Below are positions 24,801-60,800 of a stretch of 64,000 nt of DNA, piece by piece. Position 1 is the stretch's first letter, and each line of letters begins with the position of its first letter. The stretch comes from Tubiluchus corallicola (Eukaryota > Priapulida > Priapulimorpha > Priapulimorphida > Tubiluchidae): NCBI GenBank assembly GCA_030141605.1, contig JAQGDQ010000693.1, positions 1-64,000 on the forward strand. Reading direction: 5' to 3'. A model generated the notes under the pieces. The model was not told the DNA's origin. It did not search any database and saw only the letters and a program-made list of their open reading frames with translations. Both the position numbers and the translations under genes were made by a program.

Positions 24801-27800
24801 AGAGTTACAGAGAAGCAGCCGAGATCAGCTAATAGCACAAGTTTCTCAAAGCGAGGTACTACTTTAATACAAAACTAGTGCACTGATGCAAAACTTATTA
24901 CTTTACAGTTGCTTATACATGTAACCAGCAATTATACATACATACACAATAACATACGTATGTTTTCTTAGAATCAAAAACAAAATTTACTCTCAGTTTA
25001 TATCAGAAACTTCTAAATAGGCTTAACTGTGCTTTTTTGCAGATGCTCATGAATGATTCAGTAGAAGTTGAACAAAAATTGAAATTGATGGAAGACGGTC
25101 TTGCAAAACTGGAACTATTACCTGAAATCGACATTGACGAAGAGAAAAACAAATTTACCCATTTATCAACTATGATTGTTGAGGTGGGTTAAACAAAATT
25201 ATTTGAGCATATTAGCCGCTTTTCATTTTATTATTATCAACCATTACTTACAAGGATATTTACTTACAAGGATATTGTTTATGCATTACAGATAAAGAGC
25301 ATATTGCAGCATAGAATTTTGGCCTTAAATGAAGCCATTGAGGAAACTACGGAAGGGACAGAGCCACAATTACAGCTGGAATTGTCACAAGTTTTAGCAC
25401 CCGATACTGGTGCTATTGAGCCCGTTAGCAGTTTTACTGCTGATAGCATGGTTGATGGCTTTACTGACACAACTGTTGAGGAAAATGTTGCTTTAACACA
25501 GACTACTGAACCTGTTTCTCCTCAAGAAAAGGGTTACTATAGCATGGAAACATCAATGGAAACCATTGATACTTCTCCAGTTGTTATTGCCCACACACCT
25601 GCAGACTTCAACATATCTCCGGATGAACTGTTGGATAACGTGACATCAACCAAAGCAATGCCTGATAAGGAAAGTGAGGATATCAGTGAACTAGTCGATA
25701 ATGCCATTGTTTTAGACTCTGAAGGTTCATCTACTGAAATAGTAAATGGACAGCTTCCTGAAATGACTGGCATCGATGTTCTACCAATTCAGAAATTTAG
25801 AGAACCTGAGGAATCAGAAATTTTGGAAGATAATTCTGTCCCAGAAGAAGTGACTGAAGCAATAGAAGAAGTTGGAGAAGACAAAGTTGAAGTTTGGGAG
25901 GAACAAGGAGAAGAAAGAAGTATGTCTGCTATAGGAGCTCTTATTAAAGCGACCACGTCATCGGTAACAACGGTCGTAACTCGTGTGTCCGAGGTTGCTG
26001 ATCAACATATCACTGATGAAGAGGGAGTGGAGGCCTTACCTGATGAAGATTTTGTAATGGCAGATGAATCGTACCCTGAAACTGGAAATCAACCAGTAAT
26101 CACAGCAACTGAAGATGACTTAACTGGTTTTATTGTTATTGACGAAGAAGAGGTTGACACGGGAACTTCAGAATTGAAGCTTGCACCTGGTGAGGCAAAT
26201 GTTATTGGGCCAGGCGAGGAATTTGTTGTAGTTCTAGGTGAAGATGTACTACAGGATTCAAAATCTGAACCTGAACACATCACAAGTGATAATGTATCTA
26301 TAGATCACTTGCCAGAAGAAGAGCAAGGAATTGACATTTCTAAAACTGATGGTGCAGTTACAACGATGGTTAGAACAGTTGAAGAATACGAAGTTGACAC
26401 AAGACATACAGCAAGTGAAGATATGGAAAAAACGACGCAAGAAGAATCGACAAGTACTTTAACTACAGTTACTAAAATAATAACAACTAAACAGATCATA
26501 ACAACTTCAACTCTCTTAGAATCATCTGAAGTTGAACCGTCAGTCATTATAACAGAGGAAACAGATGACACCCATCCCAGAAAGCAAGAAAGTATTGGCA
26601 CTTGCAAGGAGGAGATGACCTATCTGGAATTGGAAACTGAGCCTTTTGATAAACATTGGATTCCTGAGAAAGATTATGAAAAGAAACCAGAGGACATTCA
26701 TTTAGTAAAGCATGAAGTAACTGATAGTCAACTTAAAGATCAGGGTTCTGATGAAGAGAAGCCACTTTCTGAATTTAAAACGCCAGTCATCCAGGCTGTG
26801 GAAGACGAGGTAAGTGTCTGATTTTAGCACTTTTAGTAAATTTTGTTAGTAAGTCCGGATGACCATTACTAATATATTAATCTCAATACAGCGTAGTAAA
26901 GAATGCCACCTATGCAAGCTTGTCAACTGCTTTCAGCTAGCTAAACCATTTCTAAAATGTTAACTGTCTGTTGGAAGTTTTTAACCAGGCTACTAGGTAT
27001 TTTAACTTTATGATCAAGCAATTCTATAATCATAAAAATTACTTCACCTGCAAGTCTGTGATTAGCTACATGCTTTCTGCATTAAATGAGCATTTTATAA
27101 TTTGTATCTTTAGTAAAAACCACATTCCATGGTGTGATTGCACCCAGCCTTACAATACTAACAAATATCACAGTTTTTACAATTACTTGCACATGAAGTT
27201 AATCATCCACTATACAATACATGCTTGCACCTGTCATGTAGACCACTATGCACTAGATCACTGTCTGATTGGTAGTTGTAGTACCTAAAAAAATCTATTG
27301 TCACTTTCCTTCTCTGCATGTAAACTGTCTTTTAAATGTAAGAGGTGTCTGCTAATTACTACATGTGGACGAATTTCATCATTGCGGGACATTGCGATTA
27401 CTTTAAAAAAAACTTTGTGCAATGATATAGTACATCTTTAGTTACATGTGCAATTGTACTGTATGTACTTTGCAAAAACAGCTAGTGTGGTATATAGTTG
27501 GTTTTTATAATAAAAGTCTGAGAATAAAGTGAACTGCTTGCTGCCTTCTGGCATGTGACTTTAAAGACTAATATTACATTAAATTTAAGCTGCCAAATTG
27601 AAAAATATTTCTTACACATGTAGAAAACGTGTGAATTCACTTTACTTCATTGTGTATGATTCTAGTACATTTTTGCTACTTGAAACAGTGTTTTGAGCAA
27701 GCTGCTGAATTTTGTCTGAAGTGCAAACATGCTGTTCACTTTCAATTGTCCACAAGTTGATAAAGCAGATGTTCTCTTATTAAAGAGTATTTTTCAGTGT

Positions 27801-33800: not shown

Positions 33801-36800
33801 GTTTGCTCTTTAAAATGCTTTAGTTTCAGAATGTTAGCCTGCTTCTTTCAGTGTTTCATTTTTTTAATTTTTCTTTAGGAAAAATTTGAAGAGGTGCCTA
33901 TTCGTGATGCTGAAAAAGTCGATCATGTTGAGGTGGAGGTGAGCTCTCTTATCTTAACTAATATACCACTTACCTGATAACCCTGTATTATTTCCAATCT
34001 TGGAACTACAAATTCATTATATTTGTATGCGCTAAATTTATTGTCTATGCAACAGTACTGAGCGCAGGCAGACATCGATTTATTCATTATTCTTTTCCAG
34101 AGCTTTTCAACGTGTAGAATTGTTTGTTTTTGAGAAGTCAGTGCTCAAATTTGATAGAAAATAGTGAGTCTCTATTGTCAATGGACTCATTTTAATGCCG
34201 ACTTTGTGATGCCATTGAGTCTATAACATGTTACAGAAGTGTAAAACTGTCGAAACCCGAAACTTGATGTATTTTCAATTTTGGAAAATCTGAAAATCAT
34301 TGCATGTAATGAATATAAATTGTTAATTTTTAATATCAATTAATATTGAAATAAACCTACAATTATTAAAATCACAAAACAAAAGACATTCGAAAAGTTT
34401 CTTGTTTAAATTCTGACTCAGTCTCAGCTTTTTTCTTTTCTTTATAGCAATGGTTTTGCCTCAATGTGGGTTTTGTTGTTCTGTGAAAAAGACTTGGGAA
34501 ATTAAGTGATATTAGTTGATAGTTAAACAACTAGATATTGTTCTTCCACTTCAGTCAAGTATTTATGTTTGGCTTGTGTAAATAATCTGCATGTAGTTTT
34601 GCCCTCATATATCTAAATTACCTGTTGTTGACAGTGTTAAAACCTAATTAATTATGCAATTAGTGGCTGACTTGCAGGGAATGATTATCGTAATTTGCTC
34701 TGCTTGATGTGTCTGCATGAAAAAACCACAAGACAACAACTAAATGTCAGTTGTTAACTAGAAACACCTCACCAATTGCTCTAGTCTAACAGTCCTTTGC
34801 AAAATTTTTTATAAACATTTGACATCGCATGTTTCACAGATAACATTAATAACAAAAATGTAACTCATAAATTTTCCCATCATTAAGCAATATACATGGC
34901 TTGCATATCTTCTTACATATATATATATATATATGTGTGTGTGTGTATGTGTTTGTCTCTTACTTGTATGAGATATTTGCTTTCATTTTCTTTTTTGATA
35001 GTATAGATTACCAGTTTCTTGTTTACTGACTTTACACTGTTCACTGTGTGCTTTTATATTATTAATTTCTTTTGTTGCTAATTGTTATAGCTTATTTGCG
35101 TACATTAGAAGCAGTGGTGAATATGCTGCAGCAAATATATTGTAATTATTTATATTCAGATGCATTAAATTGTTATTAATCTACATGCATGACATCTGTA
35201 TCACATCTTCATTGCAACAATCAGTAAGATCATTAACTAACTTATTACCAAAATCAGTTACATCTCAAGACAAGTTTTTCATTTGGCATTCTCATACTTG
35301 GCATTCAGAAAACTGATGCACAATTTTTAATTTCGTGTTTGCTTTTTTCCTTCGGTTCTTTAGTTTTTGCTCTCTTGTACTTCTTGCACGATGCATTAAT
35401 CCCTTAAACTTGAGTTTCTAGAGCTTTGTTTGTGGTGTGCACTCTTTGGTTATTGGTTCTATTCTATCCTGTGTCTGCTTTTTACCACTTTTGTGTCTGT
35501 TGTCACAGAGATTATCACCTGTTGCTGGTAAAGATGTCGGAGAACTAGAAACAAACGTGGATGAAAGCAAACATATGCTATCAAAACAACAGAAGAAACA
35601 CAAAAAAAGGAGACGAAGGAAGAAGCAGAACAAACTTCCTGAAGTCAGTGTAGCTAATACGCGAGGGGCCATTGCTGCCTGTGAAAATGTAATGCCTGAC
35701 AAAAAGTCAAAACATGCAAAGAAGAGTAAAAAGAATTCCCCCGATCCAGAAGCTGGAGTAGTTGAAGTTGCACCTGTTCAAGATAAAGAATCTCTGCTGG
35801 AAGAATCTGAAAATTGGATTGACAACAGGAAGAGTCTGAAAGCTGTATCCGAACAAGCATCACAGTTAATATGTACAACAGCTGACAATGTGTTGAATGA
35901 AGAAGATGATGAATTGGCCACTCACCTTGCTGAAATAAGAGCAAAATTGTTAAATTTGTCAAGCACTGTTTCTCCGCCAGAAGAGACTGAAGATAAATCC
36001 CTTCCAATTATTGATAATACAAGTGCTGTTGACCATGATTCCATTAATAGTGATGGAATGCAGATTTTTGGTGATATTGTGCCCGAAGAAACAATATCTG
36101 AGCAAATTCATATAGAGCAGGGTATGGCTGAATTAATGTCAAACATTCAAAAAATAAAGGACAGAGTTGGAATTTATGATTCTAGTCTGACATTGCTGGA
36201 AGAAGTAGCGCAGACTAACGGCTATCAAAATGAAGATGATGAGTTAGGCAAACCATTAGACCCTGAGTTGTCATTTAAAAATGCAGTGGATGAAGTTCCA
36301 GATGAATCCATTGAACTGGCAGAAGAAAGTGTCCAACTTCAAGAGGTTGAGGTAGAAAATGATCTTTGTTTGCAGCTTGCTGCATTGAAGCAGAAGCTTA
36401 AAAATCTCTCAGAAGCTGCATCATTTAAACTCGAGGAATTGTCAGAAGATGATGTAAAAGCATTAGACATTGATCATGCTAAACTTGGTGATATTTCTGA
36501 ATTTGTCCAGGAAACAGGTCTTATTCAGTCTAGCATAGCAGAGGCAGAGCCTGTTTGTTGCGTGGACGAAGTAAAAAAACCAGCTGAAACTATTATTAAT
36601 TTTCCAGAAGAAACAGACTTTGATGAACTTCAGCTTCAAATATCTAATATGAAAGCTCAGCTGCAGAAAATTATGGGTCAAACAAATAACTTAGATCAAG
36701 AACAACAACTTGAACGGTGTAAACCAGAGCCAGAGTTTGATAACGAAGTCGAACAATTCAGTATCCATGAAGCACAACGTGATTTCGAAGGCGAGCTCAG

Positions 36801-39800
36801 TCATTTTGATGAACCAACTCCTAGTGCCACAGTAGAATTAGCACTTAGTGATAACATACATCCGGAGACTCGGGCTGACGAGTCAGAAGACGAGCTTTAT
36901 ATGCAAGTTCTAGAATTAAGACAGAGACTTAAAAACCTAGCAGAAACTAACCAGGAACAAGAGAGTCAGCAAACTGATGTCATTCACGCACTTGATGAAC
37001 GGCAACAGGTTTGGCAAATAGATCATCAAAAACAGCCTCAATTAGACAGGAACAGTGAACCGTTTTCAGAAGCTGAAGCTGAAGCTGATACACAGATGTC
37101 AACTCCTGAAACTGAGCAGCAACTTTCTGAGATGAAACTGGATCTTGTCAAGCTAATCAAAGGTGCTGGTCTAGGAAAGTCAGCTATATTGGAAACATTT
37201 TGCGAAAACATTGATAGTAGATCCGATGAAGGCCTATTAACAAGTAATTTTGAAGACAATGATGAAGTTGAAGATACAGATGATGAAGATGACTTGCAGA
37301 CCAGAATTAATGAAACAAAGTTGCAATTGCAAATGCTTATGACTAAAATAGCAAGTGAAGAAGTTGATAAAAATGATGATTTGGCTGAGTCTGAGCTTCC
37401 AGTTGTAGGAGATCTATACATTGGCGCGAGTGATGCACAGTATGATATGGAACAACAAGTAGCTCCTACAGAAGTGCCTGTCAATACCAATCTGGTAAAT
37501 ATAGCACTGCCTGTTAACACTTCTGTATTTTCATTTTCAATTATTTATACAACAATCATGTTTTGTTTTTTTAGATTAATTTTTTTTGTCAATCATTAAA
37601 TTTCAATCATTTAATTTATTTACATGAATATAAGTAGCTGCTTTTTTATGCATTTTGCACCAGACTGCAAATGCAAATCTACTGAGTGTGTATCATTCAA
37701 TATGGATCAATATGGTCTGAGCTTGAACCGTAATGGTTCAATAAATCTTTTGGCATCAAAAGTAACTGAAAATTAACCAAATTTGTCAACTTTTATTTTT
37801 AGTACACATTTTGCAAATTATTTAAAAAAGGTACAGCGTATGCTGTCCACTGGTTGCCGCTCACGAGTTATCATATTAAGTCCTGATTACGATTGAACAG
37901 AAAACAGTCTCAATCCTGACTGGCTTAAATAGCTGATCTTGAGTGAAACAATTCTCAGTCTTTGCAAGATTTGCTGATGGGAGTTAGGTATAAATATCAC
38001 AAATCTGAACACAGATTACTGGAGACACATCAGTCTGACCTTCTCGTTAACATTTTTTACACTATAGGAAAAAAGTGCTACATGCCACATTTTCAAAATT
38101 TTTACCAATTACTAAAGTGCAATTGTACTAAAAGCTAGAGTGTTTTGCTTTACTAGGTTTCCAATTTTAGTTCATAAGTTTTGTCTATTGCACAAGTTCG
38201 TTAATGGCGTCTAAAAAAATAGACATTGCATTTTTATAGTGCTACTAACAATGTCACTGCGGAGCTTGGTACGTTTTATGCAAACAAGTGGTAAATTTCG
38301 ATTTAATATAAAATATTTTGTTGTTATAGAATGGCACTTCAACGACTGGAGAAGTTTCATTTGAAGGCGAGGTAAGTAGAGCTTTCAATAAACATGTAGC
38401 GTTATTAGTGTCACAGCTGCCTTCAGACTGGCTCACTCCATTATTCGATCACTCTAAACTATACATAAGTCTCTGGCATTTCAAACCTGCAACAGAGCGT
38501 AGAAACATGCAAATATTTTACAAGAGTTCAGCCATTTCTAAGGCCCTGAAAATTAAATACAAAATGTGTTGCAGTTTCACATTTTTTGATTGCACAATCA
38601 CACAGTTGCACTATGAAGAAATCTGTATTTAATATACTGGCCATCTCCTGGAGAATGTTGTTTCTTAATTTGAAATGTACTGCACTATATGCTGTAGCTG
38701 CAGTGTAGCAGTTTCTTAGCTGCAATTCTCTGAAGCATTATTATTGTCTTCTCTCGTGCATTTATATTTTTCTCGGCTCTTGCACAAGCTGTATATGAGT
38801 GATCAAACACACGCTAGAACACAGCACAGTCGTGTTAGACTTCTATGCTTATACTTTCAGCACATAGCTTTTCTTGCTATAATAATGCTGGTTGTGAATC
38901 TTTTGCTTTATCTTTTGCACTATATTATTGCTTTTAGTCGTTTTTCGGTTATATGGTGAAGGTTGCATGATTGTGCTTCTTATCCACGTGCGCTATCGTC
39001 GCAGATCTGTGAGAACCCCTGGCACTGATTTTCATTTTTCATTATGCTAGGCATCAGGGTAGATATGTGTCTGTGCTTTTAAAGAAATCAGACTCTCTAA
39101 GGGCCTGAGATAGGAGCCAAAATGACTAACACTGAGTAAGTCTAAAACTAGAGCAACTAGCATCATGAAATTTGCAGGGAAGACTCAAACAGCGATATGG
39201 TTTAAAAAGCTTAAAAAAAATTTAAGGGCTCGATATGGGAACCAAAGTGTGAAAATTAGGTCATCCATTTTTAATTTGTATTAACTCCTAAAGCAGGGAA
39301 CTAGAGTCTCGAAACTTGCACAAATTTTTCAAGGCCCTTCACCTGGGAGGAGGGCTTGACTGTAGTATGGTGAAAGTTGACCTCAGCTAAAAGGTCCTGG
39401 ACACTGGATCAGTCAATTTTTTATTACATGTACCATTTAACTCCACCTAGTGCTTTGAGTTAAGTTCAAAATTCTTGTCTTAGTTGTGTAGTAAAAAGCT
39501 GGGATTCTTTAAGGGCCAAGATAGGAGCCAAAATGTGTTACAGCTCAGTAACTCTAAAACGATAGTAACTACAGTCACGAAACTTACTGGGAAGACAGCT
39601 GGAGTCGGGATGTCAAACAAATGTGTAGTTAAATGAAAAGGCAGCATTCTTTAAGAGCCCGAAATGTGAAAATTAAGGCATCCAGTTTTGATTCACGTTA
39701 ACTCTCCAAGGGTAGACACTTGACCCATGTCAAATTTTTAAGGTATTGACGTATTGACATGAGTTAACCACACTCGACCAAATGTAGTTAGTTGTAAACA

Positions 39801-42800
39801 TGGTCACGGCGTTACGCTTGTGGATTTGGTTCTGTAGTCACTCAGTCTTGTCTATATTGTTTTATCTGTTTCTGTGGTGGTAGTAATATAATGATACTGG
39901 TTGCTACTCTTGAATGTTTTCATAAATTTTATATAATTTAATAGTAGTCTTTTGTTATGTCTATAAATTATTTTGGTGACAGTCCTTATTTAAAGCATGT
40001 ATTTATGTAAATCATCTGTTTAATGTTTATGTGGTTTTATTCAGTTTGGTGATGCTATGTGATTGGTTCTTTTTCTTATTCGTTTTGTTACTTCTTCTTC
40101 TTTCTAGCCCATTGTAGGATACGGAGCCATTGCGTTAACAGATCGTTCTCATACTGCTCTAACTACACAAATAAGTGATACTTATTTACCTGATTTCACA
40201 ACTGATGATAATTTACATGCAAAATTAGCTCACAACAATTTACAAATAAATCACCCTTCTACAGAAGAACATGCAATTAGTGCAGCACAAACCATAATTG
40301 AACAAGGAAAGCAAGCTGACACATTAGGTTTATCTGACATGCCGAAACAGATTGAATTACAATACAAAGAAGCACTTGAAATTTCTAAATCTGCTGATTC
40401 TGACAGAGAGCAACAACCAGAAATAGAACCTTCTACCTTGAAAAGTGACTTTGAAATTGTTAACATTGATGTTCAGCTTGAGGAACCATCGGAAATGGAA
40501 ACGCTACCTGCTAAGCTTCTTTCTGAAATAACACCAGATGATGTTGAACTTCATAAACCTACAAAAATAGAAGGTCAAGTTGATATCATGCTGCCTGAGC
40601 AACTTCCAAGAACAGACTTAGCTGCTGTTGAATTAGATCAAACTGTTCATCTTGGAATTAAGCAAGTATCCGATTTACAAATTGCTGAGATAGAAGGAGA
40701 TAAGTCTTTAGAAATCTGTGCTTTTGCTGAACATGTGGCACCATCAAAACCAAAGACAGCTTCAATTGATATTGAAATTCAGCAGCTGCCAGAATTAGAA
40801 GCTCCTAAGCCCTCAGAAATTGTTAGTATTAATGTTCAGCTCGAGAAGTCATCAGAAAAAGAAATGTTTCCTGCTGAGGTTAATATAGAGGCTCCACCTC
40901 AAATGACAGCAGAGGATATGGAGCGCTCCATAGAAATTGTTGGTACTGATGTTCACCTTGAAGAACCAGTAGAATCAGAAATGCATCCAACTGAACTTCA
41001 CATTGAGGTGCCTTCTGAAGTAACGTCAGTAGATATTGAGCCTAGCAAAATTACAGAAATAGAAACTGCTGAAATTGATATTGCACCTGAATATGAATTG
41101 GGAACAGAAATTGACATTGTTGATCTAGAGCAAGAGGTATCACCATCTCCTTCTGCTGTTGATCTTGAAATTGAGAAGCTGTCTGATTTACAAACTGCTG
41201 ACACTAAAAGTGACAAACTTCCAGAAGTTGTTGTTCTTGATGTTGAACTTATGAGGCCACCAGAATTAGAAGGTCCTAAGCCCACAGAAGCTGTTAGTAT
41301 TGATGTTCAACTAGAAAAGCCATCAGAACAAGACATGCTTCCTGCTGAGGTTAATATAGAGGCTCCACCTGGAATGACAGCAGATGATATTGAGCGTTCT
41401 ACAGAAATTGTTGGTACTGATATTCACCTTGAAGAACCAGCAGAATCAGAAATGCATCCAACTGAACTTCACATTGAGGTGCCTTCTGAAGTAACGTCAG
41501 TAGATATTGAGCCTAGCAAAATTACAGAAATAGAAACTGCTGAAATCGATATTGCACCTGAACATGAATTGGGAACAGAAATTGACATTGTTGATCTAGA
41601 GCAAGAGGTATCACCATATCCTTCTGCTGTTGATCTTGAAATTGAGAAGCTGCCTGATTTACAAACTGCTGACACTAAAAGTGAAAAACTTCCAGAAGTT
41701 GCTGTTCTTGGTGTTGAACTTATGAAGCCACCAGAATTAGAAGCTCCTAAGCCCACAGAAGCTGTTAGTATTGATGTTCAACTAGAAAAGCCGTCAGAAC
41801 AAGACATGCTTCCTGCTGAGGTTAATATAGAGGCTCCACCTGGAATGACAGCAGATGATATTGAGCTTTCTACAGAAATTGATGGTACTGATGTTCACCT
41901 TGAAAAACTAGTAGAATCAGAAATGCATCCAACTGAACTTCACATTGAGGTGCCTTCTGAGGTAACGACAGTAGATGTTGAGCTTAGCAAAATTACAGAA
42001 ATAGAAACTGCTGAAATCGATATTGCACCTGAACATGAATTGGGAACAGAAATTGACATTGTTGATCTAGAGCAAGAGGTATCACCATATCCTTCTGCTG
42101 TTGATCTTGAAATTGAGAAGCTGCCTGATTTACAAACTGCTGACACTAAAAGTGAAAAACTTCCAGAAGTTGCTGTTCTCGATGTTGAATTTATGAAGCC
42201 ACCAGAATTAGAAGCTCCTAAGCCCACAGAAGCTGTTAGTATTGATGTTCAACTAGAAAAGCCATCAGAACAAGACATGTTTCCTGCTGAGGTTAATATA
42301 GAGGCTCCACCTGGAATGACAGCAGAGGATATTGAGCGTTCTACAGAAATTGTTGGTACTGATGTTCACCTTGAAGAACCAGTAGAATCAGAAATGCAGT
42401 CAACTGAACTTCACATTGAGGTGCCTTCTGAAGTAACGTCAGTAGATATTGAGCCTAGCAAAATTACAGAAATAGAAACTGCTGAAATCGATATTGCACC
42501 TGAACATGAATTGGGAACAGAAATTGACATTGTTGATCTAGAACAAGTGGTATCGCCATATCCTTCCGCTGTTGATCTTGAAATTGAGAAGCTGCCTGAT
42601 TTACAAACTGCTGACACTAAAAGTGACAAACTTCCAGAAGTTGCTGTTCTTGATGTTGAATTTATGAAGCCACCAGAATTAGAGGCTCCTAAGCCCACAG
42701 AAGCTGTTAGTATTGATGTTCAACTAGAAAAGCCGTCAGAACAAGACATGTTTCCTGCTGAGGTTAATATAGAGGCTCCACTTGGAATGGCAGCAGATGA

Positions 42801-45800
42801 TATTGAGCGTTCTACAGAAATTGTTGGTACTGATGTTCACCTTGAAAAACCAGTAGAATCAGAAATGCATACAACTGAACTTCACATTGAGGTGCCTTCT
42901 GAAGTAATGTCAGTAGATATTGAGCCTAGCAAAATTACAGAAATAGAAACTGCTGAAATCGATATTGCACCTGAACATGAATTGGGAACAGAAATTGACA
43001 TTGTTGATCTAGAACAAGAGGTATCACCATATCCTTCTGCTGTTGATCTTGAAATTGAGAAGCTGCCTGATTTACAAACTGCTGACACTAAAAGTGACAA
43101 ACTTCCAGAAGTTGCTGTTCTTGATGTTGAACTTATGAAGCCACCAGAATTAGAAGCTCCTAAGCCCACAGAAGCTGTTAGTATTGATGTTCAACTAGAA
43201 AAGCCGTCAGAACAAGACATGCTTCCTGCTGAGGTTAATATAGAGGCTCCACCTGGAATGACAGCAGAGGATGTTGAGCATTCTACAGAAATTGTTGGTA
43301 CTGATGTTCACCTTGAAAAACCAGTAGAATCAGAAATGCATTCAACTGAACTTCACATTGAGGTGCCTTCTGAAGTAATGTCAGTAGATATTGAGCCTAG
43401 CAAAATTACAGAAATAGAAACTGCTGAAATCGATATTGCACCTGAACATGAATTGGGAACAGAAATTGACATTGTTGATCTAGAGCAAGAGGTATCACCA
43501 TATCCTTCTGCTGTTGATCTTGAAATTGAGAAGCTGCCTGATTTACAAACTGCTGACACTAAAAGTGACAAACTTCCAGAAGTTGCTGTTCTTGATGTTG
43601 AACTTATGAAGCCACCAGAATTAGAAGCTCCTAAGCCCACAGAAGCTGTTAGTATTGATGTTCAACTAGAAAAGCCGTCAGAACAAGACATGTTTCCTGC
43701 TGAGGTTAATATAGAGGCTCCATCTGAAACGACAGCAGAGGATATTGAGCGTTCTAGCAAAATTGTTGGTACTGATGTTCACCTTGAAGAACCAGTAGAA
43801 TCAGAAATGAAGTCAACTGAACTTCACATTGAGGTGCCTTCTGAAGTAACGTCAGTAGATATTGAGCTTAGCAAAATTACAGAAATAGAAACTGCTGAAA
43901 TCGATATTGCACCTGAACATGAATTGGGAACAGAAATCGATGCTGTTGACCTAGTCCACGAGATTGCTGACACAAAAAGTGACAAACTTCCAGAAATTGG
44001 TGTTCTTGATGTTGAACTCGTGAAGCCATCAGAATTAGAAGCTCCTAAGCCCACAGAAACTGTTAGTATTGATGTTCAGCTAGAAAAGCCATCAGGACAA
44101 GACGTGCTTCCTGCTGAGGTTAATATAGAGGCTCCATCTGAAACGACAGCAGATGATGTTGAGCGTTCTACAGAAATTCTTGGTACTGATGTTCACCTTG
44201 AAGAATCAGTAGAATCAGAAATGAAGTCAACTGAACTTCACATTGAGGTGCCTTCTGAAGTAACGTCTGTAGATATTGAGCCTAGCAAAATTACAGAAAT
44301 AGAAACTGCTGAAATCGATATTGCACCTGAACATGAATTGGGAACAGAAATTGACATTGTTGATCTAGAACAAGCGGTATCACCATATCCTTCCGCTGTT
44401 GATCTTGAAATTGAGAAGCTGCCTGATTTACAAACAGCTGACACTAAAAGTGACAAACTACCAGAAGTTGCTGTTCTTGATGCTGAACTTATGAAGCCAC
44501 CAGAATTAGAAGCTCCTAAGCCCACAGAATCTGTTAGTATCGATGTTCAACTAGAAAAGCCATCAGAACAAGTCATGTTTCCTGCTGAGGTTAATATAGA
44601 TGCTCCACCTGGAATGACAGCAGAGGATGTTGAGCGTACTACAGAAATTGTTGGTACTGATGTTCACCTTGAAGAATCAGTAGAATCACGTGAGGTCACT
44701 GAACTTCACATTGAGGTGCCTTCTGAAGTAACGTCAGTAGATATTGAGCTTAGCAAAATTACAGAAATAGAAACTGCTGAAATCGATATTGCACCTGAAC
44801 ATGAATTGGGAACAGAAATTGACATTGTTGATCTAGAGCAAGAGGTATCACCATATCCTTCTGCTGTTGATCTTGAAATTGAGAAGCTGCCTGATGTACA
44901 AACTGCTGACACTAAAAGTGACAAACTTCCAGAAGTTGCTGTTCTTGATGTTGAACTTATGAAGCCACCAGAATTAGAAGCTCCTAAGCCCACAGAAGCT
45001 GTTAGTATTGATGTTCAACTAGAAAAGCCGTCAGAACAAGACATGCTTCCTGCTGAGGTTAATATAGAGGCTCCACCTGGAATGACAGCAGAGGATGTTG
45101 AGCATACTACAGAAATTGTTGGTACTGATGTTCACCTTGAAGAATCAGTAGAATCAGAAATGAAGTCAACTGAACTTCACATTGAGGTGCCTTCTGAAGT
45201 AATGTCTGTAGATATTGAGCTTAGCAAAATTACAGAAATAGAAACTGCTGAAATCGATATTGCACCTGAACATGAATTGGGAACAGAAATTGACATTGTT
45301 GACCTAGTCCACGAGATTGCTGACACTAAAAGTGACAAACTTCCAGAAGTTGCTGTTCTTGATGCTGAACTTATGAAGCCACCAGAATTAAAAGCTCCTA
45401 AGCCCACAGAAGCTGTTAGTATTGATGTTCAACTAGAAAAGCCGTCAGAACAAGACATGTTTCCTGCTGAGGTTAATATAGAGGCTCCACCTGGAATGAC
45501 AGCAGAGGATGTTGAGCGTACTACAGAAATTGTTGGTACTGATGTTCACCTTGAAGAATCAGTAGAATCAGAAATTGAGTCGACTGAACTTCACATTGAG
45601 GTGCCTTCTGAAGTAATGTCAGTAGATATTGAGCTTAGCAAAATTACAGAAATAGAAACTGCTGAAATCGATATTGCACCTGAACATGAATTGGGAACAG
45701 AAATTGACATTGTTGATCTAGAGCAAGAGGTATCACCATATCCTTCTGCTGTTGATCTTGAAATTGAGAAGCTGCCTGATTTACAAACTGCTGACACTAA

Positions 45801-48800
45801 AAGTGACAAACTTCCAGAAGTTGCTGTTCTTGATGTTGAACTTATGAAGCCACCAGAATTAGAAGCTCCTAAGCCCACAGAAGCTGTTAGTATCGATGTT
45901 CAACTAGAAAAGCCGTCAGAACAAGACATGTTTCCTGCTGAGGTTAATATAGAGGCTCCACCTGGAATGACAGCAGAGGATGTTGAGCATACTACAGAAA
46001 TTGTTGGTACTGATGTTCACCTTGAAGAATCAGTAGAATCAGAAATGGAGTCAACTGAACTTCACATTGAGGTGCCTTCTGAAGTAACGTCAGTAGATAT
46101 TGAGCTTAGCAAAATTACAGAAATAGAAACTGCTGAAATCGATATTGCACCTGAACATGAATTGGGAACAGAAATTGACATTGTTGATCTAGAACAAGTG
46201 GTATCGCCATATCCTTCCGCTGTTGATCTTGAAATTGAGAAGCTGCCTGATTTACAAACTGCTGACACTAAAAGTGACAAACTTCCAGAAGTTGCTGTTC
46301 TTGATGTTGAATTTATGAAGCCACCAGAATTAGAGGCTCCTAAGCCCACAGAAGCTGTTAGTATTGATGTTCAACTAGAAAAGCCGTCAGAACAAGACAT
46401 GTTTCCTGCTGAGGTTAATATAGAGGCTCCACCTGGAATGACAGCAGAGGATGTTGAGCGTTCTACAGAAATTGTTGGTACTGATGTTCACCTTGAAGAA
46501 CCAGTAGAATCAGAAATGGAGTCAACTGAACTTCACATTGAGGTGCCTTCTGAAGTAATGTCAGTAGATATTGAGCCTAGCAAAATTACAGAAATAGAAA
46601 CTGCTGAAATCGATATTGCACCTGAACATGAATTGGGAACAGAAATTGACATTGTTGATCTAGAACAAGCGGTATCACCATATCCTTCCGCTGTTGATCT
46701 TGAAATTGAGAAGCTGCCTGATTTACAAACTGCTGACACTAAAAGTGACAAACTTCCAGAAGTTGCTGTTCTTGATGCTGAACTTATGAAGCCACCAGAA
46801 TTAGAAGCTCCTAAGCCCACAGAAGCTGTTAGTATCGATGTTCAACTAGAAAAGCCGTCAGAACAAGTCATGTTTCCTGCTGAGGTTAATATAGAGGCTC
46901 CACCTGGAATGACAGCAGAGGATGTTGAGCGTACTACAGAAATTGTTGGTACTGATGTTCACCTTGAAGAATCAGTAGAATCAGAAATTGAGTCGACTGA
47001 ACTTCACATTGAGGTGCCTTCTGAAGTAACGTCTGTAGATATTGAGCCTAGCAAAATTACAGAAATAGAAACTGCTGAAATTGATATTGCACCTGAACAT
47101 GAATTGGGAACAGAAATTGACATTGTTGATCTAGAACAAGCGGTATCACCATATCCTTCTGCTGTTGATCTTGAAATTGAGAAGCTGCCTGATTTACAAA
47201 CTGCTGACACTAAAAGTGACAAACTTCCAGAAGTTGCTGTTCTTGATGCTGAACTTATGAAGCCACCAGAATTAAAAGCTCCTAAGCCCACAGAAGCTGT
47301 TAGTATTGATGTTCAACTAGAAAAGCCGTCAGAACAAGTCATGTTTCCTGCTGAGGTTAATATAGAGGCTCCACCTGGAATGACAGCAGAGGATGTTGAG
47401 CGTACTACAGAAATTGTTGGTACTGATGTTCACCTTGAAGAATCAGTAGAATCAGAAATTGAGTCGACTGAACTTCACATTGAGGTGCCTTCTGAAGTAA
47501 TGTCAGTAGATTTTGAGCTTAGCAAAATTACAGAAATAGAAACTGCTGAAATCGATATTGCACCTGAACATGAAATGGGAACAGAAATTGATGCTGTTGA
47601 CCTAGTCCACGAGATTGCTGACACAAAAAGTGACAAACTTCCAGACGTTGCTGTTCTTGATGTTGAACTTGTGAAGCCATCAGAATATGAAGTTCCTAAG
47701 CTCACAGAAGCTGTTAGTATTGATGTTCAACTAGAAAAGCCATCAGAACAAGACATGCTTCCTGCTGAGGTTAATATAGAAGCTCCACCTGGAATGACAG
47801 CAGAGGATGTTGAGCGTTCTACAGAAATTGTTGGTACTGATGTTCACCTTGAAGAACCAGTAGAATCAGACATGCATCCAACTGAACTTCACATTGAGGT
47901 GCCTTCTGAAGTAACGTCAGTAGATATTGAGCCTAGCAAAATTGCAGAAATAGAAACTGCTGATATCAATATTGCACCTGAACATGAATTGGGAACAGAA
48001 ATTGACATTGTTGATCTAGAGCAAGAGGTATCACCATATCCTTCTGCTGCTGAGCTTGAAATTGAGAAGTTGCCTGATTTACAAACTGCTGACACTAAAA
48101 GTGACAAACTTCCAGAAGTTGCTGTTCTTGATGTTGAACTTATGAAGCCACCAGAATTAGAAGCTCCTAAGCTCACAGAAGCTGTTAGTATTGATGTTCA
48201 ACTAGAAAAGCCATCAGAACAAGACATGTTTCCTGCTGAGGTTAATATAGAGGCTCCACCTGGAATGACAGCAGAGGATGTTGAGCGTTCTACAGAAATT
48301 GTTGGTACTGATGTTCACCTTGAAGAACCAGTAGAATCAGAAATGCATCCAACTGAACTTCACATTGAGGTGCCTTCTGAAGTAACGTCAGTAGATATTG
48401 AGCCTAGCAAAATTACAGAAATAGAAACTGCTGAAATCGATATTGCACCTGAACATGAATTGGGAACAGAAATTGACATTGTTGATCTAGAGCAAGAGGT
48501 ATCACCATATCCTTCTGCTGCTGATCTTGAAATTGAGAAGCTGCCTGATTTACAAACTGCTGACACTAAAAGTGACAAACTTCCAGAAGTTGCTGTTCTT
48601 GATGTTGAACTTATGAAGCCACCAGAATTAGAAGCTCCTAAGCTCACAGAAGCTGTTAGTATTGATGTTCAACTAGAAAAGCCGTCAGAACAAGACATGT
48701 TTCCTGCTGAGGTTAATATAGAGGCTCCACCTGGAATGACAGCAGAGGATGTTGAGCGTTCTACAGAAATTGTTTGTACTGATGTTCACCTTGAAGAACC

Positions 48801-51800
48801 AGTAGAATCAGAAATGGAGTCAACTGAACTTCACATTGAGGTGCCTTCTGAAGTAACGTCAGTAGATATTGAGCCTAGCAAAATTACAGAAATAGAAACT
48901 GCTGAAATCGATGTTGCACCTGAACATGAATTGGGAACAGAAATTGACATTGTTGATCTAGAGCAAGAGGTATCACTATATCCTTCTGCTGCTGATCTTG
49001 AAATTGAGAAGCTGCCTGATTTACAAACTGCTGACACTAAAAGTGACAAACTTCCAAAAGTTGGTGTTCTTGATGTTATGAAGCCGTCAGAATTACAAAC
49101 TCCTAAACCATCTGAACAAGAAGTGGTTCTTGCTGAAGTTAATGTAGAGACTTCTGAAATGACAAATGCAAAGGCTTCTTTAGAAATAACAAGTGATATG
49201 AAATATGCAACAGAAATTGTTGGTATTGATGTTCATGTTGAGGAGTCATCAGAACCAGATATACTTCCAACTGGACGTCATGATGACATGCTTGTTGAAT
49301 TAACATCAGATGTTGTTGAACATGACACATCACCGGACTTGCAAGCAATGCTTGTACCAGCCGAGTCAGATAAACCCCAAGACATATTAACACAAATTTC
49401 TGATGCACAGTTAGGTATGAAAGAACCAAAAACTACAAACATAAAATCACCATTACACATTTTAAGTACAAAAATAGGAGAACCTGCTGAGTCAGGCTTA
49501 CCAATAGCACCTCCTGAGAAACAGGACGAACAGGAACAGGTATCATATTATTTTGTTGTGGTATGTTTTGAAATGTGGAACTATTTAATTATGTTTATAA
49601 TGAGTACACTTGCAGAATTTGCTATGATTTGTCATCATATAATTAGTTCGGTGGAAAGACTTGTATCATTCTTTTGAAAGCTTTAGTCTGTAAATAAGAA
49701 AATATTTTGTATATAGTCAATATAATCATGGCTTTATATGCAACATATCAATTTTTCGTAACTTTAATTATTTTTGGTATCTTTTGGGGAATATTTCTTC
49801 CGAGGTAGCTGTTACATTTTGGTTTTCCATTTAACATATAGGTTGAAGATGCTATTGAGACAGTCAGAGAGGAGCCATTTGTTGAGCCTGGAGCAGAACC
49901 AATGCCAAAAGATGTTGATACTAAAGAAGAGACAAATGAGATAACAAAACCAGAAGATGTTGAGCTTGAAAAAGAGCCAAAAGAAGTTATAAGTGCCTTA
50001 CCCATTGACACTTTTAGAGGGGAACAAGTCACACCTCACGAGGAGTTAGAACCGGAAGATGTTGGGGCTGAACCAAACAGGGGGGAAGAAGAACCAAAAA
50101 AAGTAACAAGTGTTTTGCCCATCAAGTTGCATAGAGAGGAACCAGTCGGACCGCATGTTGAATCAAAATCAGAAGCTATTGGTGTTGAAGAAGAGCCAAA
50201 TGAAATAATAAGTGCTTTACCCATCCAATCATTTAGAGAGGAAGTAGTTAAATTTCATGTAGAGTCAAAATCTGAAGATGTTGAGACTGAAAAAGAGACA
50301 AAGGAAGTAACAATTATCTTGCCTATTGAATCATATAGAGAACCCGCTAAATCTCAAGAACCTGAAGAACAATTCAGTGAGGCATTTAGAGATGAACAAC
50401 CAGAAATAGAGGAAGTGGATCTTACAACTGTTGTTACAGAAGATTTACCCACGAACATGTGGGGGTATGATCCAAGAGAGCTTAGTTATGCAGAAGTGTT
50501 AAAGCTGGGTTTGCAAAAATTGGAACCACATGAGGATGAGACGTTTGTCACCACAGAAGAATTGCAACTTGAAGGTGGCCCAATTGAAGAGGTATATATT
50601 TGTTCAGAAACTTTGTTTGTTGTGTGTGTTATCTGTTTCTTTCTTCATCCTAAAGTTGAAAACATGTAAGAGTTTATTTACACGCAATCATGTTAGTGCA
50701 ATGATAGATTCACAAAATTTTGTGGTCACTTAAGTTTTACAGGATCGAAATTCACTAAAGTGACAATTATTATAACAAACTTTTACTGTTTACATCTTCA
50801 AAGAAAATATAAAAAATAAAAACATGTATGTTTTTAATGATGTGTTTTTAATGAACGTTGCAGGTACGGCCTGTTTATCAGGTGCATCATGATGTATTGC
50901 TGCATCGAATAATTCATCGAGTTACAGTTACTGAGATCTGGTTAACAGAAGTCGTGGAAACCTTTATGACTCGTCCTATACAACCTGGCGAAGCCAGTTA
51001 CACCTTACAAGAAAACCTTGTATGTTTTGACTTACGTCTATCATGATTGTAATGTTTAAGGTCTCTAAGATATCTACAACTACTGTTATTTAAAGTAATG
51101 TGACAATCTAGGTGAAATAGCAAAATAAAAGCAACTTTACATGACATTAAAAGATCAACGTATATTTGTGCAGTGAAAATTAAACTCAATAGGAAATAAA
51201 CTGTTTTTGAATTGATACTAGGTTTGTAACTAAATTTTACTGATGCGGAATGAGTATAGAAACTATTACGTATTTCACCTGATAATGCATGCTAGCAATT
51301 TCTTTCTTGATTTTCTAAAAGGCCTGTGTTTTTAGGTGTCATTAAAATTGTATTTGGTTGTGTTTTCTTTATAAATAAGGCATCAGGAGTAGAAAGTACA
51401 TGACACCTTCCATTTATTGTGTCATTATTATTGAATTATTATTTTTAACAGGATTTACAAGAGGCTATTAAGGCAAAAGAAAAGGAGCTTAGTAATTTAT
51501 CCGTACTTTACACTCAGTTGGCTACACATCATTCTCACGAACCAGCAGAAGATATGCTTCCTCGCTTTTCTGCATTACAGACACAACTTTCGCAAGCTAA
51601 TATTATTCTGGATTCTGGTGTAGAAGAACTTGAAACCACTGCTGAGGAAGAAGCCAAAAAACTTGCTGTTCAGCAAGAGGTTTCTTACATCATTCCTGTT
51701 GGTACACAGTGGGAGGAAGCAGAGGTTGACGACTCTGCTAGAAGTCTTTACGGACATGATTTGAGGACAATGACATATACCGAAATGTTAGAGCTTGCTA

Positions 51801-54800: not shown

Positions 54801-57800
54801 CTTCAGTGGCTAGTCCAAAAAAATACATACAAACCATTGATGAAAGGGCAAAAACGTTTACCATTGAAGAGCTTCCTAGTGAAGAGGCAGCAGATGTCAC
54901 TGATGGTACTGATGAAACTTTGGTATGTTTTTCTTTGATATATAAATTGAACTTATTTCATGATGGTCTTTGGTTTGGTGTTGTAGATTCCTACAGTTTT
55001 CCCATTCCTTGTTTTCTTAGACACAACGTCATTATTTTTGAAACAATTCCTACTTTCTGTTGTAGTTAATTGATCCAAGTGCAGTAAGTCATTCTATACT
55101 GATGCAGTCAGTAGCTGACATTGCTTTGCTGACGGAAGAGCCCTTGTCATCAACGGACTTGACCGTTGGACAAGTTGACTCTCAGTGGGAGGTTCTGCAC
55201 TGGTATCTTACACAGCAGGAACTTCAGCTTACCGGAATGGCGTCTCCTCCTGAAGTATGTAGTTTGTTTTTCATTTCAAGTCATAGTACTGTAACATATA
55301 TATATATACATATATATATATATATTCTAGCTTAAAATAGTGACAATTGTTTGCTACTTTTTTTGCAGTCTTTAGTTCTGTTTGCATGCCTTATTTGTAA
55401 TAAACATTCGATTAATCTTGGAAATCAATCTTATTTAGTCAGATTAACCAATAAAACAAAATATGCAGTGTTTGTTTTTCAACCAACTAATAAAGCAGGT
55501 GTACATCTGTTTGATAAAAATCCATTCAAAATAAAAATCCTTTGGTTTTAGGATTGCTGGCTTCTCTAAAGTCCATTCTTATTTTTGGTGAGAAATTGTA
55601 AACTAAATTCTTAATGTTTTGCTAAGTAGCTTATATTTTGTATGTCTGGCAATGCTTGGCAGGACTAGGAATGCTTTATTAATTCACCTTTCACTGATTT
55701 TGTATGTGTACTGCAAAGGTGGCTTGATTTCTACATGTATTGTAATGCCAGAATTTAGTAACTTGCCGACATAATCTCTGAGGCTTATTTATTTTTTGCT
55801 CGTTTATTAAAGTTATTGCTGTATTTTTGTCTGGTTAAAACTAGATTGGTGTTATTGTTGTATTTGTTAGACTGCCTGCTTTATATGCTTGCTTTAATTG
55901 AACTATCATGCCAGGAAGTGAAAGTTGTTCATGGACACTTTTACATTAATATTGTTTACATCTAAAGCTGAAATAAAAAATTTTAGCAAATGTAGAATTA
56001 TATTTTGAAATTCCATATATTTCACTGCTGTTGCTTTTCACATACTTTTTAGGGATTTTGTTGTTTTTCATATTTATATGTAGTGTATAACTCTTACCTT
56101 TCATTTTTTTAATATACAATTTCTGTGTGCCAGCACGATTTTTAATTATGATTTGTCAGCAGGATATGGAAGAGAGGCAGCGTTTTTTTCGTACCTACCA
56201 CATTTTAACAACTGAAACCACTATCACTGAATGGATTACTGTACAGACTTTGATCACACGCTTATATCAGTACTATACAGCAATTCAGGATACTTTGCCC
56301 AATGATTCTCAAGCTCAGCTGCTACTGCTACAGATGTTAAAACAAACCATAGAGCAATTGTGCATGTACATTACAGCCATGCAAGTTAGACTTATGAAAC
56401 CTTCAGGAGAGGATCTGGAAGTGCAGGTCATACAGAATGAGGTAAGATTTTTGAAAGTGTTAAAATTTCTATATACTTTGTTTAGCACTTACAGCCTTTT
56501 AGGGCGAGAGAAATACATCAGTATTGAATCAAAAGTGTTTTTCTTGAGATTATGCAATTGTTACCTTTTTAACCAAGGCACCAAGCGTACATATACCTCT
56601 AGATTTTATTTGAAGAAGATTATTTTTGTGGCCCATAACTATTTTATTCGATCATTTTTAGCGTGACCACATCAGGAATTTGGAAAATTTCCATATGTTG
56701 AGCCTGGAAGATGATGTAGCACATAATGTTGTGATAATTGCTCCATGTTAAATTTTTACATGTGCTTTTGATAGACTATGTAATTGTATGTGTGTGCATG
56801 TAATGCAAAATGTTTCTTGCCTGATAAAAAATAGTTGTCCACTATTCATATGCACCTTTGATTTATTCAAGTAATATTTCAATATGTTCTTTATGGCAAG
56901 TATCTTCGAAAAAATCTTTATCTTGCATCTTTTTAGGAACTGATCGATGACATCAGAAGAGCTGCAGAAGAAGTATCTATCTTGCAAGAAGTGGCTCCTC
57001 TCTATATTGTTCATGCTTCACCACGTACACATGTTTTAGTAAAGCAGTCATTGACTTTGATGCAGAACAGACTATCAACTCTTGAAGACAAAGCAGTGGA
57101 AAAAGGACGACTTTTGCAAGAGAAGAAAAACCAGGAGGCTGTCATACAAGTAAGAAATCATGAGTTACAATAAGTCAATAAAAATTATGCTCTGTTTTAT
57201 TAAAAATGTTTGGTCACTTGTTGTCTTTCTTATTTACTGAATATGTTGAACATGACGTAAGAAAACAATTATAAGAAATATTGTTGATATAAAATTAACA
57301 GAAATTGAGTAAATTTTGATATATGAAGACTTGTGTTAGTTGTTCAAACATAGCTGGTATGGTGATTTCAAAATGCAACTTCTTTCACTTTGGTTTTTGC
57401 TTATCAATAACTCCACTTATTTAGTATGAAATACATTCAGGAAGAAACAAATTCAGAAAAAGTGCCAAATCAGTAGGATTATTTTAGTTATGCTCTTTTT
57501 GTTAAGAATTGTATTTTTGTGGCTAGATGGAAGTGCACAGGTTGTTAACATTAGTGACAACGGTATGGGAGCAGTACACAATAATCGTCAACAACGAAAC
57601 ATTGTCAGCAGCAGAACAGCAATTACCTCTTCAGGTAAGTCAATTCTTTTTTATATTGAAACTTTAGAAATAATTTAAAAAATTCTTCCAATGAACGCCA
57701 TTGTATATGACAATGATTGTGATGGCAAAAGGAGCTCTAAAATTTTCTGAAAATTTTGTTCTTATGAGAAATGTGAGCTACTGCAACAATGAATAATAGA

Positions 57801-60800
57801 AAAAAAGCAGTAAAGTTTCACCAGAAATGCTAGGTAAACTCATTATTGATGGAGTCATTTTGAAATGACATTCAAAAAGATAGATCTTGAAAAGTTATGG
57901 AATACTGTTATTAGGCAGTCTACTAACATTGCACGTATTACAAAAATACAGTCATCAGTTTTACTTAGCATTTGCCATTTCGCTACTTTAATGTAATGCT
58001 AGTAATGTGTGGCAATACAATTAGTCCTTATAAATGTGTTAAAAGAAAACCAGATGATTTTTTAGACTAATTCTTATTTTAATTTACTGTCCAAACTATA
58101 CATTTTCTTACCTATAAAAATTAGCAATTGATTCTTATATTTGAATAATTTGTTTAGGAAGTTAATTAATGGCAACCGAACACACCTATTGCTTACGTCA
58201 GAAACTAACCACAGTTTGTGCAATGGGAGGCATCTTCCTTTGCGCGTCAAGCACGTTTGCACATGTGTTACTGCTTAAACGTGTGAAGTCACAAAAATAG
58301 GCTCTTATATCATATGATGCCAGAAACTAACACTGCAGTTCATGATCGTGGTTATCACGGTACCACCTTCTATTTGTCGGCCACACACATGTGACAAAAA
58401 GTCGGCGTTGCCAATCTTTGTAGATTCACTGAGCTTTGAAAGTTTAACAAAATTTGGGTATCCGAGGTAATTATTATTTATTCTAAGCTTTGACTTAAAA
58501 AAAGCTATTGTAGTTTTCGACATTTTAGAGCACACTTTATTCTGAACTCGTGTTTACACAATCATCCGGTTTTCCTTTAACATTAAAATCTTATTCAGTC
58601 TGCAAGTTAAGTCTGGAACATTTTGCTTTTTGTAATGAAAGATTTTTGATTGCTATATGTATGTGATACCTTCTAGCAACTTGGTTTTTGATATTATAAA
58701 AACAATAAAATGCTTGTTTTAAATGTGAATTAGCAGATGACAACATTTTAACAACTGAACATCTTACTGTACAGCATTTACTTACATGATGTCCCACACT
58801 ACTAGCACTGTTGCTCAAGCTTTCTGTATGAGCTTATGGCAGTGGGTTTAATGCTCTTACAATTGTAATATTTAATTTCTATTCAAAAAACCATTTTGCC
58901 ATTGATAAAAGATTTATTTGTCAGTTACTATTAATACATATTTGCCTATTATAAATGTAGTAATAAAAGTTCTGGCACACATTAGGCATCTACGTTGATA
59001 GTCAGTGTATAAGACGTGAGCTGTTTTAGCATGGTTTTTGTTGGAGAAAAGCACATCCTATATAGCAAAAATATGGTAGGTAGAAGTATATCACTTGTGA
59101 ATCCTTCTAGAAACAGACTAAAACATTGTAACAGATGCAAACCACAGTTACTTAGACTGGACTTTGTTTTCACAGGAAGCTGAGGGCAAGCTTGCCGAAT
59201 GCGAGGATGGAGTAAATCAGCTTCTGATTGTTAACACAGATCACCTAGCAACTGACACAGCATCCAGCATTTATCAACTCAGTACCAATTTCCATAATTT
59301 GCGGTCACTGCTGTCCACTCGTGTCGTGACCTTGCACAAGACTGTGGCCATCCAGAACCTGTATGAGAAATTACTACAGGAGTATGTGATGTTATTAGAA
59401 GCCGGAGAGAGGAAACTGCAGCATGTAACAGCCGCAGATCTTGATGATTTGAAATCACAAATCATTGCAAATAAGGTAAAAGTTTTTATAACTAAATTGG
59501 TGACCACGGGGATTGTATTGTGTAGTTTGTAATACATGTTGTGATGGGCCTGCCCATGTGCTGCATTTGTGAGGTTTTAAGCCAGTGTTTCATGTCTCTG
59601 CAACTTTTTGGAACGATCGAAGATTTTCTGTCCAACAGTCGCTAAAAAATTCCCCCAACCATGTTTTCTCATCTAAGTTGCAAATTATTCGTGTAAAGTT
59701 TTAAATATTTCGCACAATTTTCCCCACTTTTTGGCAAATTTCAAGGTTTTTTCTAGGGCAAAAATCGTGAAAAGGTCACATGAAATTCATATGCCAAGTT
59801 TGCATGTGACGCTTATTCGACAAGGCGAATGTTGCACGACATTTGCGCGAGCACATTGCAATCATTTCCTTAATATGTCACAGGATTTGCATGGAAAAAA
59901 TGCTAGACGAGCAAGCTTCTCCAAAATGTTGAAAAATAGCCCAAAGTTGTCGCAGCAAGCATCTCAAAATGTTCTCTAAGTTTTCATGAATTTTGAAATC
60001 GTTGACGATCATCACAAATAATTGGGCACATATTTGTGCAGGTGTAGCACATGTTCATGATAGTTTGGAGAAAATGATGAACAACCACAAATGATTTGAG
60101 ACTATTCAGGGAACTTTTGGATCATGTCTTGTGACTGTCTGCCATTTTCAGATAGTCGCCAAATTCATGAATCCTGTGAAACACCGCTTTCGTTTTTTTT
60201 AGTGCCAGTGCACAACACTTGTGACAATCAAGCGGTACAAGTTTGATTTTAAATATCCAAATATGTTGCAAGTATGAATATTAAAATTCTGAAAATTAAA
60301 TTAACTACTTTAAAATTAAATACAGTTTTACCTTTAAATGCTTGAAATGAAAATGCTGTTACAGTTACAGTTAACCATCTTTCAATTTTAATAAATCTGT
60401 AGTTAATTTTGTATTGTTTTCATAAATGCTTGTTCCCTATTTTATTTGTGAAGATATATTAATAATTTTCCATTGTGTTGCAGAAATTCTTTCGATACCT
60501 GTGCATATTCCATGCCATATTGAACGCTGTACGTGATAAAGCCGATCCTGTTACCAGAGAACACCTCGTTCAGAAACATCAACACGTGACTAAGCGCACT
60601 TTTGCTGCCCATGCTCAGGCAGTAGACCATGTGGTTAATTTAGAGTGCATTGCTCGTCAGTGGTCAGAGTTTGAGCAGCAGAGACTGAAGATGAATGACA
60701 CAGTAGCTGACGTATATCAGCAATATAAAGCTGCCAAATCCTGCACTTCTGATCAGGAGTTACTTGCTGCATTGAAGGTTAGAAATCTTTAATTGTATTA

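Follow-up and report, generated by a model that had tools for sequence, protein, structure and literature searches.

The window analysed here is a stretch of 64,000 nucleotides (nt) from the priapulid Tubiluchus corallicola (GenBank assembly GCA_030141605.1, contig JAQGDQ010000693.1, positions 1 to 64,000 of the forward strand), with 35% G+C and no N, and it is apparently spanned by one large gene on the + strand. When exons were joined by an exon-chaining script, 50 segments with a total of 9,138 codons and no stop were obtained, and 44 of the 50 start between codons, with no pending codon base. This gene model is a prediction in which several exons were missed and segment 15275-15305 is probably false; some exons were added by eye for the later searches with spliced pieces and for the comparison of rod blocks. 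The subject of this report is a giant exon in the model that carries a tandem array of a coding unit of 157 amino acids (aa). The features that concern this unit are as follows.

40108..49539, + strand: giant array exon of 3,144 codons, net charge -648, no stop, borders between codons
40450..40668 (exon residues 115-187), + strand: piece of an older unit, strongly diverged, to the left of the array, 16.3 bits
40747..41196, + strand: unit at the left edge, scoring 246.6 bits and 88% identical in DNA to the consensus
41197..49029, + strand: tandem array with 17 full units (13 of 471 base pairs (bp), 3 of 414 bp and 1 of 468 bp)
49030..49320 (exon residues 2975-3071), + strand: truncated and diverged right-edge unit, 46.8 bits
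28132..33435, + strand: another giant exon of 1,768 codons, in which a profile search found diverged relics of the 157-aa unit

The array lies in a + strand frame that runs from stop to stop over 40108-49677. The exon of 9,432 nt is bordered by an acceptor, ...TTCTTTCTAG followed by CCCATT, and by a donor, GTATCATA preceded by GAACAG, which is weak (score 0.7 in the exon-chaining script). An alternative GT donor noticed by eye, GTATGT preceded by TTGTG, would lengthen the exon by 7 codons, to 49560. Tandem Repeats Finder reported periods of 471, 468 and 414 in the array, with a best score of 5,771, and the motif ADTKS occurs 18 times, giving 17 intervals, of which 13 are 157 codons, 3 are 138 codons and 1 is 156 codons. 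The open frame, the motif intervals and Tandem Repeats Finder thus bear out the initial annotation, which had described a 3,144-codon exon with 17 complete in-frame units of the 157-aa type, 13 of them at exactly 471 bp, and variants of 414 and 468 bp.

The DNA identity among units 1-17 was on average 95.3% (range 90.6-98.5%) and the protein identity 90.3%. Nucleotides private to one unit totalled 56 and were found in 11 of the 17 units. There were 0-1 of them in each of units 9-13 and many in unit 15, and the interior units 7 and 8 carried 9 and 10, respectively, so that the proposed picture of diverged edges and a young centre holds for units 9-13 but not for the interior as a whole. The three 138-codon units (6, 9 and 14) have in common a variant tail and the 57-nt length difference, and they probably descend from a single event that then spread by duplication or exchange.

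Units far apart in the array were as similar as neighbours (95.3% identity at lag 12 and 95.7% at lag 1). Among 33 informative two-state sites, with gapped columns excluded, r2 between variant sites fell from 0.41 within 30 nt (73 pairs) to 0.06 beyond 200 nt (182 pairs), and the share of site pairs showing all four combinations rose from 0.19 to 0.42 from near to distant sites. Eight of the 33 sites sit in the common tail of units 6, 9 and 14; all four combinations were still present in 119 of 300 pairs when the tail sites were left out. Minor variants common to adjacent units numbered 34 compared to 21.6 expected, a difference given without a significance test. Flat identity together with reshuffled variants indicates exchange between copies, and duplication of neighbours and long-range exchange both seem to be active. 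The earlier view that the array is young or homogenised is supported.

The ratio of nonsynonymous to synonymous rates (dN/dS), which the initial annotation had named as a check, was pooled over all 136 unit pairs, with an interval from resampling of the 157 codon columns. It was found to be 0.92 (95% 0.59-1.59), with proportions of synonymous (pS) and nonsynonymous (pN) differences of 0.049 and 0.045, respectively. Among 103 distinct changes against the consensus, approximately 24 were silent and 79 changed the residue, which agrees with an absence of selection (P 0.38), and none made a stop (chance 0.04 if the exon were non-coding). The changes fell on codon positions 1, 2 and 3 in the near-equal numbers of 37, 30 and 36, indicating little selection on residues. 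The prior remark that differences at first and second as well as third positions are rare is correct, though their rough equality is the more accurate description. Variants that change charge were depleted, 15 of 64 single-base replacement variants compared to 23.9 expected (P 0.015, uncorrected); charge change was one of 11 features tried on these 64 of the 72 replacement variants, and the ten others gave P >0.05. The spectrin rod of the same gene served as control. In 8 spectrin exon families present in three tandem blocks, the pooled dN/dS was 0.28, 0.20 and 0.23 (418 codons), and some rod exons nearer to the array in divergence were also constrained (family E6, blocks A and B, pS 0.15 and pN 0.06; family E4, A and B, 0.19 and 0.04). 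The plain reading of these results is that the array preserves its frame and perhaps its charge, but hardly its residues.

The consensus unit contains 28% acidic residues and 10% proline, lacks Cys and Trp, and has a net charge of -36 in 157 residues. Its mean hydropathy of 0.456 is below 0.496, the charge-hydropathy boundary for its charge, and thus on the disordered side. When two units were modelled with AlphaFold2 from an alignment of 13 rows (nine near-copies and four diverged sequences), the mean predicted local distance difference test score (pLDDT) was 40.7 and the predicted template modelling score (pTM) 0.11; 0 of 314 residues reached a pLDDT of at least 70, no strand was formed, and 13 of 314 residues were helical, at low confidence. 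The control rod exon 59176-59475, modelled from its single sequence, gave a pLDDT of 60.0, with 24, 24, 25 and 13 residues in its four helices. A sequence search of the repeat exon against the PDB returned no match at 0.1. According to the modelling, the unit does not resemble a hidden spectrin repeat, and its acidic chain appears to be disordered. An extended chain measures 0.36 nm per residue, and the 17 units, with 2,611 residues, correspond to a contour length of approximately 0.9 micrometre, the relaxed size being far shorter. One Pfam model, PF12379 (betacoronavirus NSP3 N-terminal), passed its cut-off of 26.7 on the frame 40108-49677 with 30.4 bits, with no single stretch passing alone. 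It was rejected as an apparent false positive that reflects the acidic and repetitive composition of the protein, and nothing else points to a virus.

Repetition was found at more than one level. When the consensus unit was compared with itself, the best offset was 39 residues with a score of 88, compared to a best of 66 and a mean of 37 in 1,000 shuffles. One pair of internal sub-repeats is clear (gapped score 77), and the other comparisons, run without a shuffle control, gave 46, 38 and 30. The length of 157 is close to 4 x 39, but four sub-repeats per unit would be a guess. A profile of the 17 units also found relic units in exon 28132-33435, with 56.5, 21.3 and 41.7 bits at residues 100-524, and a weak fourth piece at residues 521-635 (5.7 bits). 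In the controls, 20 shuffled sets of the other large exons scored no higher than 3.6 bits, and no unrelated small exon of the gene exceeded 4.1 bits. These diverged relics indicate that the unit predates the array, which is a later re-expansion of an older repeat that persists, diverged, in exon 28132-33435. The history thus has several layers: an element of approximately 39 aa; a 157-aa unit made at least partly from it; an old set of units, now diverged, in two exons; and the recent re-expansion to 17 full copies, which unequal crossing-over and gene conversion would keep alike.

The other features of the gene in the window are as follows.

1092..25183, + strand: upstream spectrin-repeat exons, including the tandem block of 8 exon families x3 (exon model and Pfam)
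25292..26809, + strand: acidic low-complexity exon in the run of large exons
35509..37494, + strand: acidic low-complexity exon in the run of large exons
49842..50591, + strand: exon after the array exon, acidic and proline-rich
55066..63419, + strand: downstream exons with spectrin repeats

Seven large acidic exons lie between the rods (25292-26809, 28132-33435, 35509-37494, 40108-49539, 49842-50591, 51452-51883 and 53978-54922), and all seven, when tested, had a length that is a multiple of three, phase 0, and AG and GT borders. In the predicted spliced model, spectrin repeats (PF00435, cut-off 29.9) were above threshold on both sides of the array, with 43.1 bits upstream and 31.8 bits downstream, in agreement with the earlier placement of the array within a giant spectrin-repeat gene. 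When the pieces and joints were chosen differently, the same model gave 25.5 and 35.1 bits upstream and 26.1 bits downstream, while two additional pieces had no match. A downstream spectrin piece matched alpha-actinin-2 in the PDB by sequence (E 6e-05).

The rod block at 6664-19000 contains the 8 exon families three times in tandem at a spacing of approximately 3.6-4.9 kb. Blocks A and B are nearest in families E4-E6, and B and C in E2 and E3, mixed nearest pairs that hint at exchange among the blocks. By eye, exon 35509-37494 carries approximately five short elements that resemble coiled coils (for example LAEIRAKLLNLSS, LAALKQKLKNLSE and VLELRQRLKNLAE), another degenerate repeat, together with the basic stretch KKRRRRKKQ. 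Also by eye, exons 49842-50591 and 51452-51883 carry two similar motifs, YDPRELSYAEVLKLGLQKLE and YGHDLRTMTYTEMLELAIERL, and pieces 50855-51046 and 52084-52239 carry two similar helical stretches, HRVTVTEIWLTEV and HRVAVTEVWVTHV; the alternation of motifs and helical pieces suggests a duplication of an exon pair. Near the left end of the window, 166-898 and 899-1631 form an exact 733-bp tandem duplication with zero differences, in which a predicted exon is repeated (359-511 and 1092-1244); it is either very recent or an assembly error. A promoter scan of the first 100 bases found nothing, and the Rfam and tRNA scans gave 0 matches.

The initial annotation had taken the gene for a nuclear tether of the nesprin family, and this identity was not borne out. 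Family models stayed below their cut-offs, the nesprin ones ranking highest of the spectrin-type models on two upstream pieces: PF25034 (nesprin type) scored 22.7 and 18.0 bits (cut-off 35), PF24615 (an ANC-1 model) 17.3 bits on an upstream piece (cut-off 28) and the dystrophin-type PF23729 12.8 bits (cut-off 27.6). Because unrelated models reached similar scores on the same pieces (Cdc6_C 20.6, BBS2_hp 20.1 and DUF6630 17.1), the nesprin scores are a hint only. No CH or KASH domain was found in the pieces scanned with Pfam, and both ends of the gene, which runs off the window, would fall outside it. Plakin or plectin repeats and a GAS2 domain were likewise absent among the Pfam matches for the part of the gene in the window. 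The chance that the gene is a nesprin is put, by judgement, at somewhat over one half.

A collection of 5.8 billion proteins was searched with three parts of the gene. There was no match for residues 1-700 of the repeat exon at E 0.001 (7,967 candidates scored), for the spliced downstream part at E 1 (7,985 candidates) or for residues 60-700 of exon 28132-33435 at E 0.01 (7,984 candidates). Since even the downstream spectrin part was unmatched, the collection is probably poor in animal proteins, and absence from it says little about lineage-specificity. The proposal of a lineage-specific expansion is therefore consistent with the lack of a relative of the repeat exon there, but a search in which all three gene parts go unmatched is a poor test of it.

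From these computations we infer that the exon encodes a long, strongly acidic, proline-spaced and largely disordered segment between the two spectrin rods of a giant cytoskeletal protein, a length-adjustable flexible spacer, and we consider this reading fairly probable. If disordered in the cell and used in transcripts, the segment would act as a flexible spacer or entropic bristle that gives length and negative charge rather than as a folded binding module, and the host protein would perhaps be of the nesprin/Msp300 type.

Several observations weigh against this reading. The AlphaFold2 alignment was shallow and low pLDDT is no proof of disorder; the control rod exon, folded without an alignment, had no PDB fold match at E 0.001 (0 of 68 listed matches). 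Without the tail sites the decay of r2 was weaker, from 0.175 to 0.081, with 26 of 2,000 permutations as extreme. The interval of dN/dS between units is wide, and young divergence inflates such ratios. In the rod, the comparison of E2 between B and C, at low divergence, was also high (pS 0.22 and pN 0.17); of the three pooled rod dS values, two exceed 1, near saturation. The dN/dS of the left-edge unit against the others was 0.70 (0.37-1.36), leaving room for possible modest constraint over longer times, and replacements showed weak clustering within the unit (P 0.04), which may mean that parts of it are constrained.

The same clustering counts in favour of a rival reading, in which the 157-aa unit would be a docking module whose short hydrophobic-x-hydrophobic motifs followed by proline bind a cytoskeletal or motor partner, with copy number setting avidity. 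The consensus has eight separate V/I/L-x-V/I/L-...-P places, counted without a chance control, and two 11-column stretches free of replacement. A docking role is nevertheless unlikely, given that dN/dS is close to 1 among the units but 0.20-0.28 in the rod and that a longest replacement-free run of 11 columns is not unusual (P 0.28). Less likely again is a neutral or nearly neutral expansion by unequal exchange in a dispensable disordered exon, merely tolerated and perhaps spliced into some isoforms only. The near-neutral residues, the weak donor and the run of seven phase-0 exons with lengths in multiples of three, whose skipping preserves the frame, are all in keeping with it, but the frame stays open and stop-free across 9.4 kb, charge changes are weakly depleted and the neighbouring large exons have a like acidic composition. 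It is very improbable that the true array is shorter and that assembly multiplied or shuffled its copies. The 733-bp duplication (166-898 = 899-1631), which seems to be artificial or else extremely recent, speaks for such an artefact. Against it, 11 of the 17 units carry private variants (56 in total) and no two units are an identical pair (maximum 98.5%), which weighs against simple multiplication; the longest exact repeat in the array is 326 nt and the window is without N.

Among known systems, compared here by description, the array is close in form to AHNAK and AHNAK2, in which hydrophobic residues likewise alternate with proline. Their giant exons hold units of approximately 128 residues and 24 units of 165 residues, respectively (PMC10682155, in the excerpt available); the exon here shows the AHNAK-type pattern of 100-170-residue tandem repeats in a giant exon, with 17 units of mostly 157 residues. 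Unlike the present gene, where the array exon lies inside a spectrin-repeat gene, AHNAK has an N-terminal PDZ domain, and no spectrin rod is named in that excerpt (PMC10682155). The giant nesprin-type protein ANC-1 of C. elegans carries mid-protein six tandem 903-residue repeats, almost 100% conserved in DNA and predicted to be helical, and deletions in its repeat region impair nuclear anchorage (PMC8139857, excerpt). The near-identity of repeats is alike in the two, but the unit here has 157 residues, is acidic and is non-helical in the model. In Drosophila Msp300, the nesprin-1 orthologue, exon use differs by isoform, exon 28 being present only in E, M and G, and its knock-down leads to clustered muscle nuclei (PMC8616381). 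The middle of Msp300 also varies by exon use, and the size, composition and repeats of exon 28 are not given in the excerpt of PMC8616381; another excerpt speaks of large exons toward the 3' end (PMC7055005). Bombyx mori Syne1 is a giant nesprin of 13,424 aa with 54 spectrin repeats and CH and KASH domains, for which, unlike the present gene, the excerpt mentions no repeat array (PMC12193018). The excerpt of PMC12400953 contains nothing on this gene. Among the matches listed, largely open-access literature seen as titles and opening lines of abstracts, none reports a nesprin with a disordered tandem array in its coding sequence, or a disordered array inside a spectrin-repeat giant beside a constrained, copied rod. 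Giant exons with internal tandem arrays (AHNAK) and a repeat-lengthened nesprin (ANC-1) are already known from these excerpts; the internal repeat of approximately 39 aa, the relic units in exon 28132-33435, the near-neutral dN/dS, the reshuffled variants and the modelled acidic disorder are added by the present analysis.

The length of cytoskeletal tethers is usually framed as a number of folded spectrin repeats. Here two modes of lengthening occur within one gene, a rod block present three times under purifying selection (0.20-0.28) and a disordered array with nearly unconstrained residues (0.92), and together they offer a natural within-gene comparison of whether selection acts on linker length. 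It is conceivable, if improbable, that the gene encodes a nesprin-type tether whose reach is set by a disordered acidic spacer from a hyper-exchanging array, with selection on length and charge rather than sequence and with a copy number that may differ among individuals and species and tune the reach or softness of the hold on a nucleus or organelle. If copy number varies within the species, the effect of tether length on the position of nuclei or organelles could be tested directly.

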